Position numbers and translations under genes: made by a program
The notes under the pieces: model-generated
Told to the model about the DNA's origin: nothing
What the model saw: only the letters and a program-made list of their open reading frames with translations
The model's database searches: none
From: Tieghemiomyces parasiticus
Lineage: Eukaryota > Kickxellomycota > Dimargaritomycetes > Dimargaritales > Dimargaritaceae
NCBI GenBank assembly: GCA_027575765.1
Contig: JANBPT010000064.1
Coordinates: 22,619 to 86,618 of the forward strand
Length of the DNA stretch: 64,000 nucleotides
Direction: 5' to 3'
Part shown: positions 3,427-17,775 of the stretch, piece by piece
Layout: each line of letters starts with the position of its first letter
Numbering within the stretch: the first letter of the stretch is position 1

Positions 3427-4895
3427 CGGGAAGGCGAGGTGAGGCGGGCGGTAAGGCTTCGTGTCAACGGCATAAAGGGATGTCGAAATCGAGTAGGGGT
3501 TGGGGGATTTTCTCGGGGTATTGTGGTGTTTCGAGTTGTTGATGGGCTCTCAAGAGAGCGGACTTGGTAACGAGTGAATGTATTCTTTCCACCGACCAAC
3601 TTTAAAATATTTTCAGGAGTGACAAATTGTTAGCGACAATGTGCTACAGGTGCTCTCGTTGGTCGACGCATCGGGTTGGCCAGAGGGAATGCAGGGGGGG
3701 GGAGAGAAGGCGAAACCGGGACTGATTGGAAGGGGGAAGGGACTGGAATTAATCAACCATCCGGGGTGACAGTGGCATTAAGGGCGCGGGCTTAGCGCGG
3801 GGTCCGGGCACGACCCTCCCGGGTAACAGCGGCCTTGAGTGCCCAGGGGATGCAGTGGAACACCTGAGTCGCATCATTATCGCCCACGAGGTCAATGCCG
3901 AATCGGCTACGGACGATAGGATCGCCGGATTCCCCACCCCCGCCACAAACGGTTTTTTAGGCGGGTGCTAACCGGATATCCCAACTGACGCCGGCCGGAC
4001 CGAGGTGCACCTTAGCCATTGCGCAGGCGAATCCCAGGTCGGTGTGACGCAGGTAACTACAAATCAATACTAAGTGGAGCAAGCTAGCCCAGGCGGTGAC
4101 GGGGGTTCACCATATGCCCTACTTAACTTCGGAAATCGGTCTGGTTGGGATCCTTGGAGCGGGGAACATACTAGTAGATCGGGTGAGTAGCCAGACTAGG
4201 CCAAAGCAGAAGTGCCAATTTATGGCGTAACCAGCGAGGGTAGTTACTGTACCGAGACACCATTACCAGCTGAAAAAGGGACAGGTGACAAAAGCGGAAA
4301 TGCTGCTCGGGTGCGACGGGCTGACGAGGGCAATTAAATATATACGAGAGGGAGAGAGTAGAACGTGATATCCGACGTGGAGAAGGTGCGGCGGCTGGCA
4401 GTCACCCGACCGACGTGGTCTGATCAGTAAAGACCATCTTGCCGTGACGAAGGAGATTTCCAAAGAATAATAGAGAGTAAAGGCTATCCTGAGTAGTGTG
4501 TCCCACTGGGGTCCATCGTGCAACGTTGCGCACCCTCCTCCCCTGACCTATATCTCTAACTGGGTCAGTCATATTATCGACACAAGTAAGAGGTTTCCGC
4601 CTTCAGGGTGGCAATCTCTCCAGTGGCTGGACTCGGGAAGCAAGGGCGAGATTGATATAGCGGCCACAATCAAAGTTCCCTCTCCTCCTTCCCTGCATAA
4701 GCTCTCAGGTTGGCATTCCATAGTGAGCTTGCATTACGATAATGATGCGTACACGCGTAGCCAAAATTACGGCAGAGCCTTGATATGAAGCGCTTTATCA
4801 ATGTAAGGCAAATATCGACTTGCAAAGTGGGTCACAGCAATGTGAAGCAAATATGGTACTAACCCATGAAGACTTTCCAGGTCGTACAATCAAGA
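3427..4895. other. Intergenic region, no gene recognised
   Basis: About 1.5 kb upstream of the methyltransferase and downstream of the questin-oxidase-like gene. Short ORFs here show no family resemblance and have no good splice partners. No tRNA box B was seen on either strand. Confidence 0.4.
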
Positions 4896-6628
4896 CTACT
4901 CTTGAGGGAGAGCCTGGAACCGCCAGTCGTCCTTCACCTGGATCTGGTCAACGGTATGTAGGGCCGCGTGGTGAAACAGTTCGTCGTTGGTATCACCGTA
5001 GACCCGCCGGAAGAAATCGAGGGCACGCACGACCTTAGCTACATGGTCATCATCGGCGGCCACCGCGCGCTCCCGGATATCATGCCAGCTGCCAGGGTAG
5101 GCCCTCATGGTCCCGTCGCCGTTACCATCATTGCTGTCACTCTCGGTATCGGAAGGCGAGAACGGTGGGGTCGCATCATTCCCTGCCACCCGGTGGTTCC
5201 CCTGGCGCCGCCGCAGGTGGGCATCCGCCGGCACGTGGGGTTCCTTAGGCAGGGTCCCGCGCCCCTCGGCAGCGTACACGGCTAGTAGGATAAACAGTTG
5301 GAGGCGGAGCTGACGCACCTGGTCACGCGGGTCGGTGAGGTGCGGAACAATCATGAAGGTGGCGTAGAGCGAGGTGACAGCGTGGGCCAAGAAAAAATCC
5401 AGACGGGCGGGTCGTTTGGTCACGAGACCGGCATAGGCCCCCACCGTGCTCACAGCCAGTCGGCGGAGCACGTCGGGCGTCACCGGGCTGGAGCGGCCGG
5501 CGTCCGTAGACTGGTCCGCCGGAGCCAGAGGGAGGTAGTTCTGTACCAGTCGGCTTAGCTTTTGCATGACGGCTGGGCGGCCCAACAGGGCGGCGGCGCG
5601 GCCCGAGAACCGGGGTTCGGCTGCGTTGACCTGGAAGTCACCACTGGCGTCCTCAGCCACCTGGTGCAGGGACAGCCAGGGATCAGTCGCTGTCTGAGGC
5701 TGCGGCGGCTCCTGCATGGCGGTAGTGGCAACAGTGGGCTGGTCGATGACGGCGGCCATATCCAGGTAATGGCTGCAGGCGTAGGCCAGGCCCTCGCTGA
5801 GCAGCTGGTCGTTGTGGAATTCGATAGCGTAACCAATGTGGATCATCGGGTGGGTCAGGCCTCCGTACATGCCCGCGAGGAGCAACGGGTAGTAGGTTTG
5901 GAAGACGGACTCCATGCCGCGCTCGCTTATCTCGTGGTCGAAAAAGCGGAGGTAGGCGCCATACGTCCTGTCCGTAGGGGAGTGGGTGGCGGTTGGTGTG
6001 AGTGCCAGGTATGATGAAGTGAGGGCGTAGGGTGGTGAGAATTGTGGGGCGGGTCCTGAGTCAGTATCCACTGGGGGTTATTATACTACCATCCACCGCC
6101 AGATGCGTCAACGTGAGGGGGGGGCGGGGGTGAGGCAATTGGTATTCAGTTTACTTACTCACGCTGGCCGAGGTGGTCCATGAGGTTATCGCGCGTAATG
6201 GTGACATTTGTCTTGGGTAGGGGTTCCAGGCGCGGAAGGTAGTCGTCGTACGTCTGTCGCAATCGCTCAGGCGTGGCACCCAACACCCACTGCGAGTACA
6301 GCTTGTGGGGAAGGTGCTTGGACCGGAACCCCATGTAGACAATATTGCTACGGTGGGTGTTGTGGATGTATTTGAGCAGCGCCAACTCGGCGTGTGGGTA
6401 CCCGCCCATATTCACGTGGTCGGTATGGACGCGAGCCGTCAGGGCCGGGAGGTCAGCAAGGCGGCTGATCATGGTGGTGGCGGTGAGGATGTGGGTGGAG
6501 CGGGCGAGGGCTTTGGATAATAGCAGGGGTCGCAGGAAGCCAGCGCTGAGCGTGGTGGCGGCGTTGCGGCGAAGGGTAGGAAGGGGGGACAGGTGATAAG
6601 CGCGCAGAATACTATGCGCGCGGAACAT
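4896..6628 (-). CDS. Questin oxidase-like protein (DUF4243 family)
   Basis: Two exons are inferred, 6628-6163 and 6070-4896, joined over a 92-nt intron with donor GTGAGT and acceptor CAG. They give 546 aa. The join links ITRDNLMDHLGQ to a linker followed by YGAYLRFFDHEISERGMESV, which is the order expected in questin oxidase-like proteins (AflY/GedK relatives). The block HPMIHIGYAIEFHNDQLLSE is the best-known signature of that family. The characterised fungal members open aromatic rings by Baeyer-Villiger-type oxidation in secondary metabolism. Here the neighbours are housekeeping genes, so no pathway can be named. The ATG at 6628 is the first in frame after an upstream in-frame non-ATG stretch; the basic, hydrophobic start could act as a targeting signal, which is only inferred. 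Confidence 0.72.
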
Positions 6629-10141: not shown

Positions 10142-11509
10142 ATGTCTGCCAGGTAAGTGAACCCCTCCATTCGGGGGAGGCGATTCAGATCTGGGGATCT
10201 CCCCAGATCTACTTTGGATCCCACCTGGGATTCTGATCATCACCGACCGGTATCCCTTGTGGGATCCCACTTCTACTAACCAGATAGTGGAGAGTCTCTA
10301 CAGCCAGCCTAACCGGCTGGCTGTAGTTAATCCCCCCCACCGGTTGAGTGGACCTGGACTTCGGGTCCGGGCTACGTGAGGACTGGTAGATATCCACCAG
10401 TCCTCATGTAAGCTGTCCACTTTTGCCGTGTGTCATTTTAAATGAATTGGGGTCTCATAACTAATCTGATTAGTTTTCCCTTATTCTCCCTTCCCCCGCC
10501 CACCACAGCAACGCTACCAAGGTTTTCGCTCCGGAAACGGTTCTCAAGAACCGTAAGGTTAACGCCGAGCAGGCCGCTCAGCGCAAGGCTGAGCGTGCCG
10601 AGCTCACCAAGGTAAGTACTGCCTCTTATTGTGCCTACCAAATAGATGACCCCATCTCTATCGTGAGATGATGATAATTGCCACTTGTTGGCGCTATGTC
10701 CCATCGGGGACAACTGTGCGAAACCATAATAACTGTCTTTCGGAACTGATTTCACGATACAAGCTCTCCTTGCTTATTAGGTCGAGGAGTCTGTTTCATC
10801 CTATACCCACCGCACTTACTAACTTATTTATCGCACACCCCTTTTTGGGCTTTGTATTCGTATTGTTTTTTCCATCGAGTAGAAGCGCGCCGAGACCTCC
10901 AAGGTCATTTTCAAGCGCGCCGAGCAGTACCTGCAGGAGGCCATGCAGGCTGAGCGTGCCCTCGTCTCTGCTCGCCGTGAGGCCCGCGCCACCGGCAACT
11001 TCTTTGTCGAGGCGGAGCCCAAGGTTTTCTTCGTGGTGCGCATTAAGGGTATCATGAAGATGCCCCCGAAGCCCCGCAAGGTGCTCCAGCTGCTGCGCCT
11101 GCTCCAGATCAACAACGGTGTCTTCGTTCGCGTGAACAAGGCCTCGTTGGCCATGCTGCAGCTGGTCCTTCCCTACGTGACCTTCGGTGAGGCCAACCTG
11201 AAGACCGTCCGCGAGCTGCTTTACAAGCGCGGTTTCGCCAAGGTCAACGGTCAGCGCATCCCTCTGTACGACAACAGCGTCATCGAGAACTCCCTTGGTA
11301 AGCTCGGTCTGATCTGCGTGGAGGATATCATTCACGAGATCTTTACCTGCGGTCCCCACTTCAAGGAGGCCAACGCCTTCCTGTGGCCCTTCAAGCTGTC
11401 GAACCCCAACGGTGGTTTCTCTGGCCGCAAGGTTAGAAACTTCATCGAGGGTGGTGACACTGGCTACCGTGGTGACTTCATCAACGCCCTGGTTCGTAAG
11501 ATGAACTAG
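10142..11509 (+). CDS. RPL7: 60S ribosomal protein L7 (uL30)
   Basis: Three exons, 10142-10152, 10509-10611 and 10883-11509, give 246 aa. The first exon has only 11 coding bases (MSA plus part of a Ser codon), a common design for fungal ribosomal protein genes. The protein has the basic eukaryotic L7 extension ([20 protein letters not shown]) and then the L30 domain: [40 protein letters not shown] and [18 protein letters not shown]. It is a structural protein of the large subunit. Intron 1 (10153-10508, 356 nt) carries an array of strong hairpins. Intron 2 (10612-10882, 271 nt) carries a C/D snoRNA and a perfect TACTAAC branch site at 10817-10823. Yeast RPL7 introns also host snoRNAs. AATAAA lies about 70 nt past the stop. 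Confidence 0.97.
10162..10409 (+). other. Hairpin array in RPL7 intron 1
   Basis: Starting 9 nt after the donor, the intron folds into a row of hairpins: 10164-10180 (CCTCC/GGAGG); 10187-10210 (10-bp perfect stem AGATCTGGGG, 4-nt loop ATCT); 10216-10267 (GGATCCCAC/GTGGGATCC, with an inner GGGA/TCCC pair); 10298-10326 (12-bp perfect stem CTACAGCCAGCC, 5-nt loop); 10353-10371 (CCTGGAC/GTCCGGG, one G-U pair); and 10374-10409 (14-bp stem with one G-U pair, 8-nt loop). The probable branch site CTAATC follows near 10461. Nothing else in the window has stems of this quality. The function is unknown. Confidence 0.85.
10661..10757 (+). ncRNA. Intronic C/D box snoRNA, snR39b-like
   Basis: Within RPL7 intron 2. 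The C box ATGATGA is at 10668-10674 and the D box CTGA at 10746-10749. The ends pair as a terminal stem, TCGTGA (10661-10666) with TCACGA (10752-10757). The bases just upstream of the D box (10732-10743) pair with the 25S rRNA segment CCGAAAGAUGGU over 12 positions, two of them G-U. By the D+5 rule the modified base is the G of CCGAAAGA, which I believe is the yeast Gm805 site guided by snR39B; the numbering is from memory. Yeast RPL7 genes also carry intronic C/D snoRNAs (snR39, snR59), which supports the call. D' and C' boxes are not clear. Confidence 0.82.
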
Positions 11510-15622: not shown

Positions 15623-17775
15623 TCAGCGCCACCATTCGTCAGTTAGACCCACTCTCAAAGGATCCAACTCCGTTAGGGCTGCCGCATGTTCGGCGGCTGC
15701 TGTCCGGTCGGCGTCGGTGAGCCCCACGGTATTTTGCTTAACCTTGTAAATGTACAGGATGTTGCGCAGGATTACTAGGGGGGCCGTCAAGCCAGAGTGG
15801 GCATACCGGGGAGAGGGAGAAAGTGAGAGGGGGTTGAAGGGGTTAGCGTACCTGTGTTTGACGAAAAGTACCAAGGCCAGAAAGAAAGCCGTATGGTACC
15901 GGCACAAACTTATCAGAGAATGCTAGTGACTTACGTTTGACATCGGGCGCGAGTTCGTAAAGCTCCTGGATAATCCCGAGTTGGGCTTCAAGTAACGCAT
16001 CGGGTTGTTCGGCACCGTTATCTATAGCTGGAATCATTGGGCAGTCAGGCCAAAGCCGAGAGGGAGAGGGGGTGAGGTGTTACGGGTTCGTTGCGGAGTA
16101 GTTGGTTCTCGTGTTCAGGGATTCTTGCAGTTAAGGGTTCAATATGGGGGGGGGAATAATGTATTCCAACCAAGACGATCCGCCCTGCTCACCTTGTTTA
16201 ACTAACCAACGCCAGTGTAGCCACCCGCACTCGTCGCGCGGCTCAGTGTACAGGGCACCTTGGACAAGCTCGAAGTCTTGGGTCAAATGGGCAGTGGAGG
16301 ACCGTGATGGGGGGGGGGGTCAGGATGACGACCGTTAGTGCACGCAGGTGGGGAAAGTGTGAACCTAGTCCTCAGTATTCGCTTCCCATGGTAGATGTAG
16401 TGGTTGGCTATCTTGATGGTCCAAACCTACCATCCTCGATCAATTTCCGACGCTCGGCTATCGTTTTATGAGGCAGGATCGCCTCGAGCAACTTGAGACG
16501 GTTGTGCCAGGCTGAAAAGTTGGAAAAGTCAGTCATGATATGGGTGGTGGTGTACTCCAGTTCCTCCAGATTGATGGTGAGTACGCGGTCGGGCTGGGCC
16601 TCACGGAGGCGGTTGACCACGTAGCGCCGGTAGTTCCAGCCGTGGACTGGAGAGATGGGGATAGAGATCCGGAGGATGGTGCGAACGAGTGTGAGTGATA
16701 ACGGTCGTTAAGACATAGCCCCTCCTCGGCGGTATCATCATCAAACAATCCCAGCAGGATGGCCCGGCAGTCCTGGGACCGGTTCCGTACACACGTGCGT
16801 GCTATATATTATATCCGCAATTAGCTGCTCCAGGGGGACAAAAACGCGGACATTGCCCACTTACAATTGCGCGCGTCTAAGCCCAGCATCTTGCCGACTA
16901 ACTTGAGCTCGGCCGACCAGTCGGGGACCGGAGTGACATTGAGGGTCCAGAATCGGTGGTTCCAGATCCAGTAGGACTTGGGATTGAACCGAATGCACTC
17001 CATGAAGAAGGCGAGCTCGGCCTGGCAGGCCCGAATCTTCTCATCGTCGCTCCTGTGCGTCGTCAGAAAGGGGAGGGGAGGGCGTGAACCACCGCGGTTA
17101 GACGAATATTTAGGCTTACTCAATCAACATGGACCAGCTTTCGCAGGAATGACTGGTCGGCAGACTGGTCGCCCCGTTCGTTCACTTACATGTTGAAAAA
17201 CCGTGAGAGTAGAATCTTGCGCCGGTAGTTCCAAACGGTATACAGGTCCGGGTTTAGCCGGAGCTGTTGCGTCGTGAGCTCGAAGGCCTCGTCGTCAAGT
17301 GCGTGGTCATCGCGCTATTCAAATAAATACCAAGAAAGCGAAGAGCAGGGATGCGAGTAGAGAGCAGGTAAATATCTGAAATAGGGCAGCGATGTGTCGC
17401 CATGCACCACATGGGGAACGGCCGAGCGAGACGGGAGTTGCTTCTCCGCTCTCAAGGCGACCTTAGCCAAAAATATAAAGTAGTACCTTGGTAAACACCG
17501 CCTGGTTAACTGAACGGTAGCTCTCAATTAACTTGGCTTCTTTCTGCTTCTTCAGCAACTGGACTTCCTTGGGGTCCTTGACCCGTCTTACGCCGTGGGA
17601 CTGGTAGAGGGCACGTAGGGTGGATAGGTGGGCAGCTGTAAGCCAGAGGGGAAAATGAGAGTCAATGGAGAGGGGAGGGCGATGCGCCGGGCCAGGGCTG
17701 GTCATCGTAGGGAGGCAATCCGACGTCATTGTCAAGAACATGGGTCCGGGCGGTGAACGGCGGAGTTCTTACCAT
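15623..17775 (-). CDS. BET4: Rab geranylgeranyltransferase alpha subunit
   Basis: Eight coding exons: 17775-17773, 17600-17487, 17314-17190, 17052-16865, 16646-16431, 16276-16193, 16027-15935 and 15774-15623. All phases agree and give 324 aa (yeast Bet4 has about 327). The first coding exon is only ATG; exon 2 begins SHGVRRVKDPKEVQ, matching the MHG start of the family. Prenyltransferase-alpha repeats are visible as TVWNYRRKILL, YWIWNHRFWTL, FHGWNYRRYVV, SAWHNRLKLL and GWLHWRWLV. The C-terminal block is LTELDPLRVGLTDEWW. With the beta subunit (Bet2) and the Rab escort protein it attaches two geranylgeranyl groups to Rab GTPases. The last junction (15935 to 15774) was chosen because it gives the expected ELAPDVK-LILRNILYIYK continuity; the intron also has an open hydrophobic frame that does not fit the phases. 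Confidence 0.93.

Follow-up and report, generated by a model that had tools for sequence, protein, structure and literature searches.

The first intron of the ribosomal protein gene RPL7 in Tieghemiomyces parasiticus, a mycoparasitic fungus of the Dimargaritales (Kickxellomycota), is predicted to fold into a chain of hairpins followed by a three-way junction. The fold is real and extreme, and it probably is a functional RNA structure, since it is matched nowhere else in the window (the whole stretch of 64,000 nucleotides that was analysed, part of an 86.6-kb contig) and is present in both copies of the gene. Tentatively, at slightly less than an even chance, we read intron 1 as a cis-acting structured RNA that controls the splicing of RPL7 and consists of two parts, a 3' part recognised by a protein and a 5' part that keeps its own stretch compact.

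Architecture of RPL7 intron 1

RPL7 lies on the plus strand and starts with an exon of 11 nt (10142-10152, with the split MSA-S), followed by intron 1 (10153-10508, 356 nt, GTAAGT...CACAG), exon 2 (10509-10611), intron 2 (10612-10882) and exon 3 (from 10883). A gene finder that had no knowledge of branch sites recovered the boundaries of both introns exactly, and the spliced product matches the T. parasiticus protein in the database at 100% identity. An unspliced message would meet an immediate stop (AGG TAA).

All structural elements of intron 1 are given here on the plus strand. Hairpin 1 (10162-10180) is weak, and its arms also pair with C-rich and G-rich segments elsewhere in the intron. 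Hairpin 2 (10187-10210) has a perfect stem of 10 bp and the loop ATCT, and is weaker in the other gene copy; hairpin 3 (10216-10267) is a long imperfect stem. Further downstream come hairpin 4 (10272-10291), with 7 bp including one G-U pair, and hairpin 5 (10298-10326), with a perfect 12-bp stem and the loop TAACC, which was located in the two RPL7 introns only. The remaining helices lie at 10338-10432: two closing helices (10338-10344 with 10425-10432, and 10346-10353 with 10415-10422) enclose a UUCG hairpin (10355-10369) and a long hairpin of 14 bp or more (10371-10413), and the 3' part is thus a three-way junction. Sampled pair probabilities in the junction were 0.97-1.0 in both gene copies. 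A sequence-only reading of this DNA had described a row of six hairpins in the intron, and every one of them was found, including the weak first one. It had listed the 12-bp stem ahead of the 7-bp stem, whereas the 7-bp stem comes first on the sequence, and it had overlooked the UUCG hairpin and the two closing helices, hence the junction itself.

Strength and specificity of the fold

Intron 1 folds at -168.4 kcal/mol against -112.1 +/- 6.2 kcal/mol for 100 dinucleotide shuffles (z = -9.13), and none of the 100 shuffles folded as well, confirming the earlier assertion that such a density of hairpins is beyond chance. We also scanned 255 positions of the window, taking both strands at each and comparing every one of the 510 resulting segments with 16 shuffles. 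Segment 10160-10409 was more stable than its own shuffles by 50.9 kcal/mol (plus strand) and 49.8 kcal/mol (minus strand); the next-best segment was the adjoining one, 10410-10659, with 17.7 kcal/mol, and the best elsewhere reached 16.9 kcal/mol. For intron 2 the fold is unremarkable (z = -1.2), and 26 of its 200 shuffles folded at least as well. The array was therefore rightly said to be unique within the window. The minus strand of intron 1 folds as well as the plus strand, which weighs against taking its action as RNA for granted; this action, the effect on splicing and the role of L7 as the ligand are inferred.

A strong fold of this kind could have been a general trait of ribosomal protein introns. 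We scanned nine other ribosomal protein genes at 16 loci with 1.5-kb flanks (422 windows per strand, 12 shuffles each); these were 16 of 25 loci, after first exons of RPS14, a fragment and weak matches had been left out. No comparable fold was present at these 16 loci, where the largest excess over shuffles was 15.2 kcal/mol on one strand and 18.5 kcal/mol on the other, and a general trait was rejected on this sample (18.5 versus 50.9 kcal/mol). Moreover, a covariance model of the junction, run on 21 sources, matched the two RPL7 introns, each also on its reverse strand, and nothing else.

The hairpins might also be mobile palindromic elements inserted in intron 1, as the sequence-only reading had suggested, and several perfect inverted repeats do stand in series there. 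However, searches of the 46.5-Mb genome, by similarity and with patterns of two hairpins, returned no loci besides the two RPL7 introns, and we give this origin almost no credence. An Rfam search of intron 1 matched nothing at gathering level, and a known intron-encoded RNA was rejected on that ground. The result also bears on the idea that the excised intron gives rise by processing to a free, trans-acting noncoding RNA. There is a precedent in the processed RNA from intron 1 of yeast RPL7B, reported with RT-PCR support (PMC4937481), and intron 1 of T. parasiticus does contain conserved sequence; against it, a permissive Rfam search gave three matches with E values of 0.34 or worse, and no C/D box was seen by eye in intron 1. 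We hold a trans-acting RNA to be very unlikely.

A conserved block shared by two gene copies

The assembly contains one further RPL7, diverged, on a contig (C665) that is colinear with the first 31 kb of the window, where that contig ends; searches of the assembly with the protein and with each of the two introns found no third copy. Of the nine other ribosomal protein genes, seven were likewise present as two diverged copies, RPS18 as a single copy and RPL23 as one copy and a fragment, and the assembly probably represents two haplotypes or subgenomes. In the second RPL7 copy, intron 1 again folds far below its shuffles (z = -8.72).

The two copies differ at 110 of 735 positions upstream and at 117 of 681 positions downstream (15-17% in the flanks). 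Within intron 1, the first part (10153-10267) differs at 18 of 115 positions and the last part at 13 of 44, and only 4 of 196 positions differ in 10268-10463. The conserved block, 10269-10468 on the plus strand, carries three substitutions and one 2-nt indel, all in columns left unpaired by a model of local helices; 114 of its 202 columns are paired, and none of these changed. All four events would land in unpaired columns with a chance of 0.036, a placement that lends the fold modest support. Compensatory changes, for which the sequence-only reading had called as a check, were not seen: none of 108 consensus pairs changed on both sides in this comparison of two copies only, where invariant helices neither support nor oppose pairing.

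At the mean noncoding divergence of 8.1% (crudely masked, over 31 kb), three or fewer changes in 200 nt have a binomial P of 5e-5, a value to be read in the light of the block having been chosen for looking conserved. Equally low divergence occurs elsewhere, in windows starting at 17369-17489 that a crude gene mask left noncoding. Six aligned pairs of ribosomal protein genes also have windows with at most four changes per 200 columns outside the matched coding stretch (unannotated, so that some may be coding). The RPS16 pair was left out of this comparison, its loci lying in opposite orientations (reversed alignment 93.9%), and RPS18 and RPL23 are without a full second copy, so that no pair was formed. 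A gene-conversion tract could also be the source of the alike stretch in RPL7. The conserved block as a coding sequence was rejected, given stops in all six frames and the 2-nt indel. As a separate observation, the low copy divergence at 17369-17684, where the crude gene finder called no gene, possibly marks a missed one.

The block also includes what might be taken for a poison exon. A UACUAAC (10274), an ACAG (10303) and a GUAAGC (10408) would frame a cassette with an in-frame stop at 10377, masked by stems and spliced in under an excess of L7. The UACUAAC (10274-10280), within hairpin 4, is perfect and far from the acceptor, and the motif is rare, with 8 occurrences in 128 kb on both strands; the conserved block contains the whole cassette together with its sites. 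The splice sites of the cassette, however, compare poorly with those of reference introns: the acceptor was at least as good in 33 of 33 reference introns and the donor in 31 of 33, by a matrix built from 33 predicted introns, which the splice-site preferences of the gene finder bias towards good sites. With internal sites this weak we disfavour the poison exon, which appears highly improbable.

Drift in sequence and retention of fold in the 5' hairpins

Hairpins 2 and 3 have accepted substitutions at about the rate of the flanks. Their fold is maintained despite this drift: random mutants carrying the same substitutions were destabilised far more, and those folding as well as the real copy numbered 5 of 2000 (from copy A to copy B) and 0 of 2000 (from B to A). 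For hairpin 2 alone the corresponding fractions were 0.43 and 0.005; hairpin 3 drifts in sequence and keeps its fold in the other copy. The test is weak for the junction block with its three substitutions, where chance alone preserved the energy in 1.2% of trials in the direction A to B and in 11.7% in the direction B to A.

On the minus strand, 0 of 2000 and 0 of 2000 random mutants were as good for hairpins 2 and 3. Since retention of their fold is equal on both strands, template switching at the DNA level could account for it just as well as selection on the RNA. The inverted repeats would then have been made and kept by replication template switching, a process reported to yield near-perfect inverted repeats (PMC8794818), and the 5' hairpins would be functionless, in keeping with the flank substitution rate of 10153-10267. 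Such an origin leaves two things unexplained, namely the low divergence of 10269-10468 and the confinement of the array to one intron, nothing alike having been found at the other 254 positions of the scan except the adjoining one. We therefore consider it distinctly unlikely as an account of the intron.

Branch site, donor and long-range pairing

The probable branch site is AACTAAT (10459-10465, plus strand), 50 nt before the acceptor, as judged from motif and distance. Eight other introns have NACTAAY near the acceptor (TACTAAC and GACTAAC twice each; AACTAAC, TACTAAT, GACTAAT and CACTAAT once each). The ending AAT is present in 3 of these 8, and AACTAAT falls within the range of the genome. 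In yeast RPL7B, the branch site of intron 1 is reported as non-consensus (PMC12311795), whereas that of T. parasiticus is not clearly weak; because AACTAAT is not clearly unusual for this genome, a parallel with the weak branch site of yeast is unsupported.

It had been proposed from the sequence that the stems bring the donor close to the branch site. Folding is indeed predicted to shorten the path of 311 nt between them to some 9-40 nt, according to the share of the intron that folds; with the splice sites left free, the best fold leaves 15 nt in each copy (16 and 20 nt in the ensemble). The proposal is thus compatible with the fold, but specificity is another matter: 60 shuffles of one copy gave paths of 23 +/- 7 nt, and since shuffled introns shorten almost as much, the effect is unspecific.

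These figures weigh directly on a simpler account, in which the hairpins serve constitutively to compact a long intron, letting the donor meet the branch site with no ligand involved. The short predicted path agrees with it, as does the manner in which hairpins 2 and 3 preserve fold and not sequence, and stems of this type, known from yeast introns as zipper stems (PMC2536676), were assigned to 32 of 88 introns in yeast (PMC12350175). Besides the shortening seen in shuffled introns, the conservation of linkers within 10269-10468 has no explanation in this account. Furthermore, zipper stems are described with linkers to donor and branch site of at least 42 nt together (PMC12350175), and by that published limit the best candidate in T. 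parasiticus, with about 8 + 10 nt, falls short (about 18 versus 42 nt). We regard a purely constitutive splicing aid as unlikely.

Two competing forms of long-range pairing were predicted, within 4 kcal/mol of the best fold. In one, the 5' G-rich arm pairs with the pyrimidine tract. In the other, ACCCC..AUUC near the donor pairs with GAAUUGGGGU ahead of the branch site; this pairing reaches donor nucleotides 5-6, stops beside the branch site and lies 3.9 and 3.6 kcal/mol above the best fold in the two copies. Like yeast zipper stems, this candidate would stand between donor and branch site; unlike them, it sits closer to either site than published limits allow, besides its cost in energy. In these models the competing pairings resemble a switch, the form of which differs between the copies.

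Comparison with known RPL7 introns

In T. parasiticus, the stretch of intron 1 from donor to branch site holds a conserved structure of several stems, as seen in two copies from one species. The closest known system is that of Saccharomyces cerevisiae RPL7B and RPL7A (the 'Hooks structure'), likewise in intron 1 of the gene for L7 (uL30) and likewise made of several stems that precede the branch site. In yeast RPL7B the conserved structure is reported to be bound by Rpl7, to repress splicing and to exclude a zipper stem (PMC12311795). Structures in RPL7 intron 1 have been reported in Saccharomycetaceae and Candida (PMC4937481), and that of RPL7B in most of the Saccharomycetaceae (PMC8216456). 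The T. parasiticus structure differs in being a hairpin chain with a three-way junction and in belonging to the phylum Kickxellomycota, the likeness being drawn apart from any comparison of sequence.

Other structured RNAs are known inside RPL7 introns. The short rpl7 motif was described from RPL7 introns of 17 fungal species, and splicing of an Aspergillus nidulans transcript bearing it was checked by RT-PCR (PMC5640933); at about 30 nt it is unlike the structure found here. The rpl7-l8-s3 motif of Li and Breaker is reported also from RPL8 and RPS3 introns (PMC5640933), whereas around RPL8 and RPS3 of T. parasiticus there was no comparable fold and no match to our junction model, the motif itself not being the query. 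Intron control by inhibition of splicing is also reported for RPL22, RPL18B, RPL28 and RPS22B (PMC4838235, PMC13232506), again ribosomal protein genes under autoregulation, but other genes with other structures. In the literature searched, mostly outside subscription journals, we found no description of an RPL7 intron 1 structure in Dimargaritales.

Intron 2 of T. parasiticus RPL7 contains a C/D-box snoRNA-like stretch at about 10660-10758, with C and D boxes and a terminal stem recognised by eye. The guide UCUUUCGG ahead of box D is SNORD2-like, and the Rfam matches lay below threshold (SNORD2, E 2.5, with UCUUUCGG-ACUGA; snoZ122, E 0.92). The stretch shows 4 substitutions in 111 positions between the gene copies. 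S. cerevisiae has its RPL7 snoRNA (snR39/snR59) in intron 2 (PMC5295604), and the position of the snoRNA-bearing RPL7 intron, which by the context of the source is the snoRNA intron and not intron 1, is given as kept in 82% of fungi (PMC8476143).

In searches for RPL7 relatives, prokaryote contigs yielded one eukaryotic RPL7 locus with introns, 60% identical, at about 4763-5676 of JAIYDP010000142.1; this contig is filed as a Verrucomicrobiaceae MAG, in which the locus is probably a contaminant, and its first intron, read by eye, is short. Viral contigs yielded no relatives. A 373-aa protein from Lupinus angustifolius, although just 53% identical, outscored the related fungi Dispira and Dimargaris.

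Discussion

The reading that we tentatively favour is splicing control by a two-part RNA. The 3' part, 10269-10468, comprises two hairpins, the three-way junction and a linker to the branch site, and would most likely be recognised by a protein, plausibly L7. The bound protein would slow the splicing of intron 1, lowering the output of L7, and the 5' hairpins (10187-10267) would mainly be a fold that keeps their stretch compact. Autoregulation by L7 fits, by analogy, the precedent of yeast RPL7B. Going further, the intron may be an L7-sensing RNA of new architecture in the Kickxellomycotina, either ancestral but rebuilt beyond recognition or re-evolved in the same intron; we consider this conceivable but doubtful.

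Structured RNA in RPL7 introns was known already, in budding yeasts from intron 1 and in further fungi, among them Aspergillus nidulans. With an extreme case in a distant phylum, it becomes testable whether intron control of L7 is ancestral or was invented repeatedly, and the genome, with its two diverged copies of the gene, offers a ready natural mutagenesis.
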